A DNA stretch of 64,000 nt. Source: Mechercharimyces sp. CAU 1602 (GTDB lineage Bacteria; Bacillota; Bacilli; Thermoactinomycetales; JANTPT01). The stretch covers positions 1,321,969-1,385,968 of the forward strand of contig NZ_JANTPT010000001.1 in assembly GCF_024753565.1 (NCBI RefSeq). Reading direction: 5' to 3'. A model generated the notes under the pieces. The model was not told the DNA's origin. It searched no databases and saw only the letters and a program-made list of their open reading frames with translations. This document shows positions 16,333-19,938 of the stretch, in pieces; positions within the stretch are counted from its first letter, which is position 1; each line of letters begins with the position of its first letter. The translations under genes and the position numbers were made by a program.

Positions 16333-16986
16333 CTATAATCCAAGTGGCAAAATATAGCCTACCATCATAGCAAAATGAAAGCCCGTACCCGCCATAATAA
16401 ATAGGTGGAAGATCTCATGAAAACCGAAGCGGTTTGGAAAAAAATCGAGCCACTTCGTTGCATAGATAATGGCTCCTACCGTATAAGCAACGCCGCCTGC
16501 AAACATGAGTATAATCGCTCCCATAGGCAAGGAATGAATCAATTGTACAAAAGGAACAACGGCAATCCAGCCAAGAGTCAAATAGAAAGCCGTCGTAATA
16601 TAACGCGGTGCGTGTACAAACCAGATTTTCAAGATCATCCCTACCACAGCCAATACCCATACTGCTGTCAGCATCGTCCATCTCCAACCACCCTCTAATC
16701 CGTGGTAAAAGACCGGGGTGTAGGAACCTGCGATAAGAAGGTAGATCGCAATGTGATCTAGCTTGCGCAAAAACTTCTCTTTTTCTGGAGTTGTCCGCAC
16801 CCAATGATATAAGGAGCTTGCTCCATACAGTAAGATAATGCTAACACCATAGATTGTCATCGTAATCAGGGTGGATACATTTTCTCTACTCAGGAGAATG
16901 AGGAACACTAAGCCCACAATTCCCGCCAGAAAAGTGATGAAATGGGTTAATGTGTTTACAGGCTCTTTCATTCGTAAAAATTTCAT
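16333..16986 (-). CDS. Hemolysin III / PAQR family seven-helix membrane protein
   Basis: 217 residues, nearly all membrane helices (about seven). PAQR signatures are present: SSLYHW after helix 2 (about 57), LDHIAIYLLIAGSYTP (about 75) and FGFHEIFHLFIMAG near the C-terminus (about 189), whose His residues with the Ser/His/Asp of the earlier motifs form the zinc site. B. subtilis relatives are YplQ-type proteins. Bacterial members have been tied to membrane lipid homeostasis; hemolysis is an old label. It is 98 bases downstream of degV on the same strand. Confidence 0.9.
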   Translation of the reverse strand: MKFLRMKEPVNTLTHFITFLAGIVGLVFLILLSRENVSTLITMTIYGVSIILLYGASSLYHWVRTTPEKEKFLRKLDHIAIYLLIAGSYTPVFYHGLEGGWRWTMLTAVWVLAVVGMILKIWFVHAPRYITTAFYLTLGWIAVVPFVQLIHSLPMGAIILMFAGGVAYTVGAIIYATKWLDFFPNRFGFHEIFHLFIMAGTGFHFAMMVGYILPLGL

Positions 16987-17084: not shown

Positions 17085-17930
17085 CTACTCTATTCTCCAA
17101 ACCAACACCATACTCCCTTTACCACCATGGACTCCAATCGTGCTACTTAACGGGCCAACCAGCACATCAACGTCTCTGTATGCTTTTTTGATGCGCTCTT
17201 TTAACGCTTCCGCTTCTTCTATAACATCCGCATGTAAGATTTGGATGCTCTGTATAACATGAATCTTACTTGCCTCCTCCAACTGCGTTAATATCGCAGC
17301 AAGCGCTCTTCTTTTGGTGCGAAACTTGCCGAAGATATGGACTGCTCCTTCTTTGATCTGCAGGATGGGATGAATTTGCAAAAGCGTTCCCACTAAACGT
17401 TGAATTCCATTGATCCTCCCGCCCTTGTATAATTGCTGTAAATCCCCTACAAGAATATAGTTACTCACTTTTTTATGCTCTGTCCGCAATATTTTTGCGA
17501 TCTGGGCCTGTTCTAACCCCTCCTCTGCCAACATCATTCCTTTCATTATCATGTGCGCCATCGGATAAGATAACAAGCGTGAATCGACTACTTCCACCGG
17601 AAAATCGACCATCGACGCGGCGATACCACTTGTGGAACAAGTTCCACTAAGGTCACTGGACAGATGAACAGCGATCGCCCCATCATACTCCTTTTTCAAC
17701 TCTTCATATACATTCATAAACGTTGCCAACGGGGGCTGTGACGTCGTCGGACACTTTTCTGATTTATCTATTTTATCGTATAATTCAGATGGAGTAAGAT
17801 CAATACCATCCTTATATATCTGCCCATGAAAAATAATTGACAATGGCACCACATATACATCTGCGTGCGTTTGTAACGAGTTTGGAAGATAAATCGAGCT
17901 ATCCGTCACCCATGCAATCTTTTTTTTCAT
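17085..17930 (-). CDS. DegV family fatty-acid-binding protein (FakB-like)
   Basis: 281 residues with the DegV fold: VTDSSIYLP at 8-16, PLSIIFHGQIYKDGIDLT (about 28-45), the lipid head-group motif CPTTSQPP (about 56) and SSDLSGTCSTSGIAA (about 91). DegV/FakB proteins hold a fatty acid for phosphorylation by the FakA kinase, feeding phospholipid synthesis. No fakA is seen here. It is transcribed divergently from the DUF1295 gene, and a CarH/LitR-like operator repeat overlaps the -35 of its likely promoter. Confidence 0.9.
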   Translation of the reverse strand: MKKKIAWVTDSSIYLPNSLQTHADVYVVPLSIIFHGQIYKDGIDLTPSELYDKIDKSEKCPTTSQPPLATFMNVYEELKKEYDGAIAVHLSSDLSGTCSTSGIAASMVDFPVEVVDSRLLSYPMAHMIMKGMMLAEEGLEQAQIAKILRTEHKKVSNYILVGDLQQLYKGGRINGIQRLVGTLLQIHPILQIKEGAVHIFGKFRTKRRALAAILTQLEEASKIHVIQSIQILHADVIEEAEALKERIKKAYRDVDVLVGPLSSTIGVHGGKGSMVLVWRIE

Positions 17931-17999
17931 TTCAACTTCTCTCCCTCTAGGAACGCTTCTTCTCTCATGGCAATGATCATGTGTCTCTGCTCTTTTTTC

Positions 18000-18071
18000 A
18001 CTGTATCACTTAATACAAAATTGTACAATATATAAAAATTAGTTGTACAAAACATGTGCAAATAGTATACT
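18000..18071. promoter_or_regulatory. Divergent promoters with TTGTACA operator repeats (CarH/LitR-like)
   Basis: Plus strand: TTGTAC (18043-18048), 17 bases, TATACT (18066-18071), leading to the DUF1295 gene. Minus strand: TTGTAC (18023-18028), 17 bases, TACAGT (18000-18005), leading to degV. Both -35 boxes lie in palindromic TTGTACAA sites exactly 22 bases (two 11-bp steps) apart, and a weaker copy (ATGTGCA, 18054-18060) continues the 11-bp phase. CarH-type regulators bind 11-bp direct repeats that cover the -35. The same core precedes the B12-binding MerR gene nearby, which makes it the likely binder. Confidence 0.7.
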
Positions 18072-18132
18072 AAATACGATCCTATACTCTTTAGTCAACG
18101 TAAGGCTCATACATCTAAAGGAGTGAATAACC

Positions 18133-18951
18133 ATGTTTTCTTTCCTACTTGTAGCAACACTATCTGTATTTATGTATATGACACTTTTTTGGCTAGTGGC
18201 ACAGTGGAAACAAGATCTGTCTATCGTCGACATTGCCTGGGGCGGTGGTTTTGTCGTTATCACCACCTCTTTGCTCTTTCTCCAAGACGAGTATACTTTT
18301 CGTCAGCTTCTTATCACTACCTTGGTCACTCTCTGGGGTGTGCGTTTAATGAACTATTTGTATCGCCGCAATCGAGGAGCAGGAGAAGATTACCGCTATA
18401 CCGCTATGCGCAAGCGCTGGTTAGCCAAAGGAAAAAGTGTCGCGTTGACTAGCTATATTCGAGTCTATCTCCTACAAGGTGTCGTCATGCTCCTTATTGC
18501 ATATCCCCTTGTAGCCGTTCATGCCTGGGACGACGGCTCATCTTTTGGGATATTAGATGGAATTGGGCTCCTCCTTTGGATCATCGGTTTCCTCTTCGAA
18601 GTAATTGGCGATTACCAATTAGAGAAGTTTAAAGAAAAGAAGCATAATAAGGGGAAAGTAATGATGTCAGGTTTATGGAAATACACCCGCCATCCCAACT
18701 ATTTCGGTGAAGCTACACTTTGGTGGGGAATCTATCTAATTGTCTGCTCCGTTCCTTATGGTTGGACTACTTTTTTTGCCCCTGCTATTCTTCACTTTTC
18801 GCTTCTCAAGGTGTCAGGGGTACCACCTCTAGAAAAAAAAGCGATGAAAAAGCCAGCTTATCGTGCTTACTCGAAGCGAACAAACCGCTTTATTCCCTGG
18901 TTCCCCAAACAAGAAACCAAGGGTGATTCCTCTAACTCCCTTCATCAGTAA
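18133..18951 (+). CDS. DUF1295 membrane protein (steroid 5-alpha-reductase-like)
   Basis: 272 residues, about six membrane helices. The conserved C-terminal motif YTRHPNYFGEATLWWGIYL (about 177-195) is the mark of DUF1295 and related steroid 5-alpha-reductase and isoprenylcysteine methyltransferase folds, where it helps bind the cofactor. RNRGAGEDYRYTAMRKRW (about 75-92) is also typical. Substrate unknown; a membrane lipid or isoprenoid is likely from the fold. AAAGGAG lies 9 bases before the ATG. The promoter carries repeats shared with the downstream B12-binding regulator. I recall DUF1295 genes in LitR regulons of other bacteria, which supports this link. Confidence 0.87.
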   Translation: MFSFLLVATLSVFMYMTLFWLVAQWKQDLSIVDIAWGGGFVVITTSLLFLQDEYTFRQLLITTLVTLWGVRLMNYLYRRNRGAGEDYRYTAMRKRWLAKGKSVALTSYIRVYLLQGVVMLLIAYPLVAVHAWDDGSSFGILDGIGLLLWIIGFLFEVIGDYQLEKFKEKKHNKGKVMMSGLWKYTRHPNYFGEATLWWGIYLIVCSVPYGWTTFFAPAILHFSLLKVSGVPPLEKKAMKKPAYRAYSKRTNRFIPWFPKQETKGDSSNSLHQ

Positions 18952-18980: not shown

Positions 18981-19020
18981 TTTGTACACTTCTTGTATAG
19001 TATATGTATAGATTGTACTA
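18981..19020 (+). promoter_or_regulatory. Operator repeats in front of the B12-binding MerR gene
   Basis: Four copies of a TTGTACA-like core begin at 18982 (TTGTACA), 18993 (TTGTATA), 19004 (ATGTATA) and 19013 (TTGTACT), the first three spaced exactly 11 bases apart. This matches the helical-phase direct repeats known for CarH operators and points to autoregulation. Promoter elements are embedded; the pair TTGTAT (18993) and TACTAT (19016), 17 bases apart, is one candidate, but the exact -10 is unclear. Confidence 0.65.
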
Positions 19021-19050: not shown

Positions 19051-19938
19051 ATGTATAATATTCGTGCAGCAGCAGAAAAGACAGGTGTATCAGCAGGGAC
19101 TCTGCGTGCCTGGGAACGTCGTTATGGTTTATCCCCTTCAGGTCGTACTACAGGGGGGCATCGCCTCTATTCTGAAGAAGATATTGCTACCCTTACCTGG
19201 CTAAAAAAACAGATAGAGGAACAAGGGCTAACCATATCTCGGGCGATAAAGAAACTATCCGTGCAAAAAGCAGTTTCTTTCTCTTCGCCTGCAGCAACCC
19301 CATCACCAATATCCACCAACACAGATCTACAAGAGGCACTATATGAAGCACTCATCTCCTTTCAAGGAAATCAAGCCCACTCCCTTCTTGATTACGGTTT
19401 TTCCCTCTACTCCCACGAACACGTTTTTCACTATCTCCTACTCCCGATTGCACAGCGAGTGGGAGATGCGTGGGAAAAAGGAGAAATCAGTGTGGCACAA
19501 GAACATCACGCTACACAACTGTTACTACAGCGTTGTTATCGCCTCATGGAAATATTTACAACACAACCCCACCTCCCTCATATGCTCGCACTCTGTCCCG
19601 AAGGCGAGCATCATCAGATGGGGCTTCTTTTCTTTACGCTCTTCTTACGCAAAAAAGGCGTGTCCGTAATTTATCTCGGTCCCAACACCCCCTCTGCTGG
19701 GTTAACACCCATAATTTCTCAACAAAAAATCTCCCATGTATGTCTCTCCATCTCTCAAACGGAACGGCAAAAGCAACTTATCCACCTCATTAATGAGTTA
19801 CTTCTCCATCATCCTAAACTTCAATTTGTCCTCGGAGGAAAAGGGATAAAACGCATTCCTTCGCCGTACGATCAATGGGTGCTTTCAGAAGAAATAGATG
19901 CATGGGAACAGTGGTACAAACAAAACATTTTTCGTTAG
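19051..19938 (+). CDS. CarH/LitR-type MerR regulator with cobalamin-binding photosensory domain
   Basis: 295 residues. An N-terminal MerR winged-helix (1-70, IRAAAEKTGVSAGTLRAWER and TGGHRLYSEEDI) is followed by a four-helix B12-cap domain and a B12-binding Rossmann domain. Diagnostic sites are present: Wx9EH as WEKGEISVAQEH (about 144-155) and ExHxxG as EGEHHQMG (about 187), whose His is the lower cobalt ligand. This is the CarH/LitR class, which represses DNA in the dark with adenosylcobalamin and releases it in light. The residue right after the Trp is Glu rather than the His that serves as upper ligand in Thermus CarH. Repeats in front of this gene and DUF1295 are probable binding sites. 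Confidence 0.87.
   Translation: MYNIRAAAEKTGVSAGTLRAWERRYGLSPSGRTTGGHRLYSEEDIATLTWLKKQIEEQGLTISRAIKKLSVQKAVSFSSPAATPSPISTNTDLQEALYEALISFQGNQAHSLLDYGFSLYSHEHVFHYLLLPIAQRVGDAWEKGEISVAQEHHATQLLLQRCYRLMEIFTTQPHLPHMLALCPEGEHHQMGLLFFTLFLRKKGVSVIYLGPNTPSAGLTPIISQQKISHVCLSISQTERQKQLIHLINELLLHHPKLQFVLGGKGIKRIPSPYDQWVLSEEIDAWEQWYKQNIFR

Follow-up and report, generated by a model that had tools for sequence, protein, structure and literature searches.

A predicted CarH/LitR-type light switch over the divergent genes degV and DUF1295 in Mechercharimyces sp. CAU 1602

Carotenoid genes are the usual target of CarH/LitR regulators, although they do not define the class, and to our knowledge CarH has hardly any known role beyond the switching of carotenoid genes. 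The CarH operator is made of 11-bp direct repeats in tandem, nnnnTnnACAn, which overlie the promoter and number three in Thermus thermophilus and four, or three plus a degenerate one, in B. megaterium (PMC9304148, PMC8156234). AdoCbl is required for CarH to bind DNA (PMC8156234), and the motifs GxxW, EH, GxxH and GxxxP are the marks of light-responsive cobalamin domains (PMC11796333). In the T. thermophilus protein, His132, which is the upper ligand after light, matters for the break-up of the tetramer (PMC10442372). A further point of reference is provided by the class II LitR proteins of Pseudomonas (PplR1 and PmlR2), which work with short-LOV proteins and recognise TGTACA boxes at the -35 region, arranged as TGTACA-N12-TGTACA with an 18-bp step; the light-induced genes include that of the lipid enzyme UfaM (PMC9758184).

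The regulator and the carotenoid question

The locus described here belongs to Mechercharimyces sp. CAU 1602 (NZ_JANTPT010000001.1, positions 1,321,969-1,385,968), and coordinates refer to this whole 64,000-nt stretch, the window. Its litR gene (19051..19938, plus strand) encodes a CarH/LitR-class regulator of 295 aa with MerR, B12-cap and B12-Rossmann domains (PF13411, PF02607 and PF02310 in a profile search), of which residues 2-235 align with T. thermophilus CarH (5c8d). All four light-response motifs are present, and W141, E151, H152, H188 and P214 are invariant in the alignment with the T. thermophilus protein, where the motif residues are W131, E141, H142 and H177. Domains, alignment and motifs thus bear out the assignment to the CarH/LitR type made in an earlier note on this DNA. 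As the score against the NCBIfam CarH equivalog NF052513 is 174 bits, under the cut-off of 400, the protein is placed in the B12-dependent CarH/LitR class and not with CarH itself. The same note put the regulator two genes away from its proposed targets, which is right when counted from degV and wrong when counted from DUF1295, since litR is the next gene downstream of the latter. A cobalamin adenosyltransferase gene is present in the genome, so that AdoCbl can be made.

In place of His132, LitR has Glu142, and the upper-ligand histidine is therefore missing. This position is variable among proven B12 photoreceptors, for which reason it is not treated here as class-defining, and Glu is also found there in Bacillota LitRs encoded beside crt-type genes (L074, L082).

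Regarding the usual output of the class, no phytoene/squalene synthase (PF00494) is encoded in the genome, which is 98% complete, so that the absence of carotenoid genes, first remarked within the window, extends genome-wide as far as this family is concerned. The synthase is equally absent from G029, G132, G276 and G220, four genomes that bear the operator arrays described below, while the same search did detect it in the crt-linked G079; all five array-bearing genomes thus lack the usual CarH output. A photolyase gene, sought as a further target, does not occur in the genome. Two observations from other genomes touch on this subject. In G321 (L129:1736-8873), an operon of DUF2177, FakA-DegV and DUF1295 lies near crtM/crtN-type genes and has no close LitR. 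G067 (L074:8862-10640) has a LitR-linked crtI-type gene in a genome without a PF00494 match, so this oxidoreductase may not make carotenoids.

The same LitR and operator could also answer to AdoCbl supply or redox as the natural signal, with degV and DUF1295 repressed when AdoCbl is plentiful. A photoswitch histidine replaced by Glu would suit such an input, CarH needs AdoCbl for binding anyway, and a genome with neither photolyase nor carotenoid synthase gives little other sign of life in the light. Against this stand the retention of all four light-response motifs, the differences among proven B12 photoreceptors at the His132 position, targets that are not B12-metabolism genes, and the photolysis of the Co-C bond, which is an intrinsic property of AdoCbl; a signal of this kind is accordingly considered unlikely, and light is retained as the preferred input.

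Two arrays of 11-bp repeats

The genes degV (17085..17930, minus strand) and DUF1295 (18133..18951, plus strand) diverge from a spacer of 202 bp in which TTGTACAA occurs twice, at 18021-18028 and 18043-18050, with a start-to-start distance of 22 bp. At 11 bp beyond the second copy lies a weaker site (18054-18061), ATGTGCA on the plus strand and TTGCACA on the minus strand. Together they form a predicted CarH/LitR-type operator array (18021..18061, no strand assigned), which on the minus strand reads TTGCACATGTT TTGTACAACTA ATTTTTATATA TTGTACAATTT, that is, four 11-bp registers with three perfect TnnACA repeats and one degenerate. The array overlaps both divergent putative -35 boxes. In the putative DUF1295 promoter (18043..18071, plus strand), the -35 box TTGTAC (18043-18048) is separated by 17 nt from the -10 box TATACT (18066-18071), a good sigma-A-type fit, with one array repeat inside the promoter spacer and with an overlapping match from a promoter scan. 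The putative degV promoter (18000..18028, minus strand) fits less well, with a -35 box TTGTAC (18028-18023) that sits within a perfect TnnACA repeat, 17 nt, and a weak -10 box TACAGT (18005-18000). The sequence positions agree with the earlier description of both -35 boxes in TTGTACAA sites 22 bp apart and of a weaker site 11 bp further on.

That description was incomplete in one respect, as it overlooked a second predicted operator array at the litR promoter (18982..19011, no strand assigned). On the minus strand this array consists of three perfect tandem TnnACA repeats (18983-19010), CTATACATATA CTATACAAGAA GTGTACAAAAA, best explained, by analogy with the described systems, as a site of autoregulation. 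A terminator was looked for between DUF1295 and litR and none was found, so read-through into litR is possible. An Rfam search of the window gave no match.

The rarity of the arrays was assessed by a strict rule that calls for three published-type TnnACA repeats in four registers at 11-bp spacing, applied to 1.664 Mb of the 2.93-Mb genome (57%). Exactly two places were found, the degV/DUF1295 spacer and the litR promoter, both within 1 kb and at litR, whereas control spacings of 8, 9, 10, 12, 13 and 14 bp gave 0-3 chance matches each over the same 1.664 Mb. In a weighted scan of 1.66 Mb the same two places scored 35.5 and 33.9, with nothing else above 31, and the top weighted score in ten Markov shuffles of the window was 30.5. 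When TTGTACA-N4-TTGTACA was sought in the whole genome with at most one mismatch, only these two places were returned.

An AT-rich promoter region could also contain TTGTAC twice by chance, and the word is indeed frequent: it occurs 42 times in the window against 26 expected, an over-representation reached in 1/100 shuffles. A single TTGTAC therefore means little, and the value lies in the spacing of the array. Most copies in the window are isolated and without explanation. Judging by the other periods, chance should yield about one strict array per 1.7 Mb, yet the two found here lie within 1 kb of each other at litR, and a second family (G029, below) keeps the register, which makes coincidence barely credible.

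Conservation of the arrays and the gene pair

The search at the family level found the source genome only, and that at the order level covered 42 genomes. Among the latter, a full-length LitR relative was found in G029 alone, from another family, which is also the only other genome of the order with this DUF1295. Its gene order is degV divergent from DUF1295, a small ORF on the opposite strand, litR and a male-sterility-type acyl reductase; the last of these (L043:7236-8330), a fatty acyl reductase-like NAD-binding protein, begins 28 bp after litR. The degV/DUF1295 spacer of G029 bears the array CTGTACAATAA TAACCTTAAAC TTATACAAAAA GTGTACAAATT, with the degenerate register, on that strand, at the position it has in the window. 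The LitRs of the window and G029 are sisters in the tree (98/93) and only 47% identical, so that recent divergence is unlikely to be the sole reason why the spacer array is conserved. Loss of the repeats from relatives that keep the genes, named by the earlier note as grounds for refutation, is therefore not what is seen, since G029 retains the array in the same register.

At the level of the class, this DUF1295 is rare (10/399 genomes), and in the loci inspected its neighbour is DegV, in most cases within a FakA-DegV fusion upstream of DUF1295. Its co-occurrence with LitR over the 399 class genomes (6/10 against 126/389, at a loose LitR threshold) is weak when taken alone, and the argument therefore rests on arrays and synteny. 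In G132, G276 and G220 (Peribacillus acanthi, L136), from two families, LitR is encoded elsewhere in the genome, and the promoter of the FakA-DegV-DUF1295 operon bears the array TTATACATAAC TTATACATATA TTATACAAAGT and variants. The same repeats, which the earlier note proposed to seek at homologues of the gene pair, are thus found in G029, G132, G276 and G220. Conversely, G135, G147, G137, G114 and G321, which have the operon and no close LitR, show no array at it. The DegV-DUF1295 array is consequently present in 5/5 genomes with LitR and 0/5 without a close LitR (four families against three), a comparison that is small and partly non-independent, as G132 and G276 belong to one genus and G147, G137 and G114 to another. 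As a positive control, the detector was run on 2.14 Mb of relatives' loci, where its matches cluster at the promoters of litR, crtI-type and DegV-DUF1295 genes, with a few extra strict-rule matches elsewhere. G132 and G276 each encode two LitR paralogues (L081, L098, L130), from two well-separated clades.

These relatives also bear on how the sites are to be read. The two TTGTACAA copies are perfect 8-bp palindromes, and they could serve an unrelated repressor that binds as a dimer, for instance a fatty-acid-responsive one, next to which LitR would be incidental; TGTACA boxes are used by class II LitR and by other regulators as well (PMC9758184). What the litR promoter and the relatives retain is nevertheless the 11-bp TnnACA register and not the palindrome (TTATACA, CTATACA), and arrays are found where LitR is found, so that an unrelated repressor is very improbable. 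For the same reason, palindromes serving a dimeric regulator were rejected as an interpretation of the sites. Of the earlier view of the spacer as palindromic sites at 11-bp steps, the stepwise repeats stand and the palindromes do not, direct repeats making better sense.

LitR might, alternatively, control DUF1295 and itself only, with degV as a divergent neighbour under an independent promoter, as the far better quality of the DUF1295 promoter would allow. G029, however, keeps degV divergent across the same array, elsewhere DegV and DUF1295 form one operon behind it, and the putative degV -35 box lies within a perfect repeat; exclusion of degV from the regulon is for these reasons judged doubtful, and control of both genes remains the preferred reading.

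In many phyla, among them Bacillota, Bacteroidota, Aminicenantes and Chloroflexi, DUF1295 is found beside DegV, a FakA(Dak2)-DegV fusion or DUF2177 (L132-L211, L122-L129), and from these gene neighbourhoods the combination appears to be a conserved module tied to the fatty acid kinase. In Paenibacillus terricola (L133:5178-10780), litR is opposite an operon of PAS-MCP, EAL, FakA-DegV and DUF1295 genes, with an array between them. The operon begins with the PAS-MCP signalling gene and the EAL phosphodiesterase, and light control of cyclic-di-GMP is possible in this organism. An Anaerolineales MAG has its litR, DegV and DUF1295 genes on the same strand, and three perfect repeats before litR are the only strict match in 1.3 Mb of named loci.

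Predicted output and comparison with known systems

The degV product (281 aa; PF02645, E 1.6e-76) matches TIGR00762 and, in the PDB, structures of DegV and FakB; its score against the FakB1 equivalog is 180, below the cut-off of 350. It is regarded as a FakB-like, putative fatty-acid-binding protein that may pass its ligand to FakA. At 98 bp downstream of degV, in the same orientation, is a TrhA/haemolysin-III (PAQR) membrane-homeostasis gene (16333-16986), and the two may share a transcript; G029 lacks this neighbour. DUF1295 encodes a membrane protein of 272 aa (PF06966, E 9.6e-76), whose AlphaFold2 model (pLDDT 95) gives VIA Z values of 14.0-14.7 over 208-228 residues with delta(14)-sterol reductase and steroid 5-alpha-reductases (4quv, 7c83, 7bw1), 11.5-12.7 with ICMT methyltransferases and at most 6.6 with unrelated chains. 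Foldseek alone yields weak E-values, 4e-3 at best, and the fold claim therefore rests on the VIA Z values and on weak sequence matches, among them one to SRD5A2. The model thus points to the steroid 5-alpha-reductase/sterol reductase/ICMT fold and to a predicted reductase or methyltransferase, two activities that the fold does not separate, as ICMT methyltransferases share it.

From the genes, motifs and arrays observed here, the uniqueness and conservation of the latter and their co-occurrence with LitR, we consider it likely that LitR acts as an AdoCbl-dependent dark repressor of degV, DUF1295 and itself through both arrays and is released by light, with an output on acyl chains. By analogy with CarH, an AdoCbl-LitR oligomer would bind 18021-18061 in the dark, thereby closing the two divergent -35 boxes together, and AdoCbl-LitR on 18982-19011 would close its own promoter. 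In the light, the Co-C bond would be broken and the oligomer would leave the DNA, turning on degV, DUF1295 and litR together. As output, the cell would make a FakB-like carrier of fatty acids and a reductase-fold membrane enzyme, so that light would probably act on a pair of genes for the handling of fatty acids and not on a pigment. To judge from gene families and neighbours, the purpose would most likely be to alter or recycle (salvage) membrane acyl chains under photo-oxidative stress, a leaning that derives from the crtM/crtN-type genes beside the DUF1295 operon of G321 and from the acyl reductase gene that follows litR in G029. Weighing against this reading are Glu142 in place of His132, one degenerate register, the weak degV -10 box and the small comparison. 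The light- or AdoCbl-controlled switch predicted by the earlier note is partly supported overall, its regulatory part by the CarH-type protein, the published operator design, the conservation and the arrays elsewhere.

A broader proposal, on which our judgement is evenly balanced, is that a second, carotenoid-free CarH regulon exists in several Bacillota families and Chloroflexi, in which a B12 photoreceptor controls FakB or FakA-DegV together with DUF1295, and light directly controls the activation of fatty acids and the chemistry of acyl chains, giving photoprotection by a route other than pigments. The locus is of interest because organisms that lack carotenoid synthase encode a CarH-class protein whose photoreceptor motifs are intact, and because the operator design is placed on lipid-related genes. 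If the reading is true, DUF1295 would gain a light-response role, the fatty acid kinase system would be linked to photo-oxidative stress, and the spacer would be a small, naturally bidirectional operator through which B12 and green light could control genes in Gram-positive hosts.

In the literature searched, with partial coverage of key papers, no paper joining CarH with DegV or DUF1295 was found, nor was a link between Fak genes and a B12 photoreceptor. The FakA/FakB system is matched by a DegV of the FakB family and, in relatives, by the FakA-DegV fusion beside DUF1295, while the likeness of DUF1295 to steroid 5-alpha-reductase, delta(14)-sterol reductase and ICMT concerns the fold of the model and a weak sequence match to SRD5A2. 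Like T. thermophilus CarH and Bacillus megaterium CarH/LitR, the regulator combines MerR and B12 domains with the light-response motifs, and 11-bp TnnACA repeats lie over the -35 region, with an array at its own promoter. It differs from these in its predicted targets, degV and DUF1295, in a genome without phytoene/squalene synthase, in the Glu at the His132 position and in one array with a degenerate third register. With Pseudomonas class II LitR it shares TGTACA boxes at -35 and lipid-related targets, here predicted, whereas the step is 11/22 bp in place of TGTACA-N12-TGTACA and the B12 motifs are complete. The locus would thus add a new regulon to a photoreceptor class that is already known, lipid targets having been described before for the differently working class II LitR of Pseudomonas.
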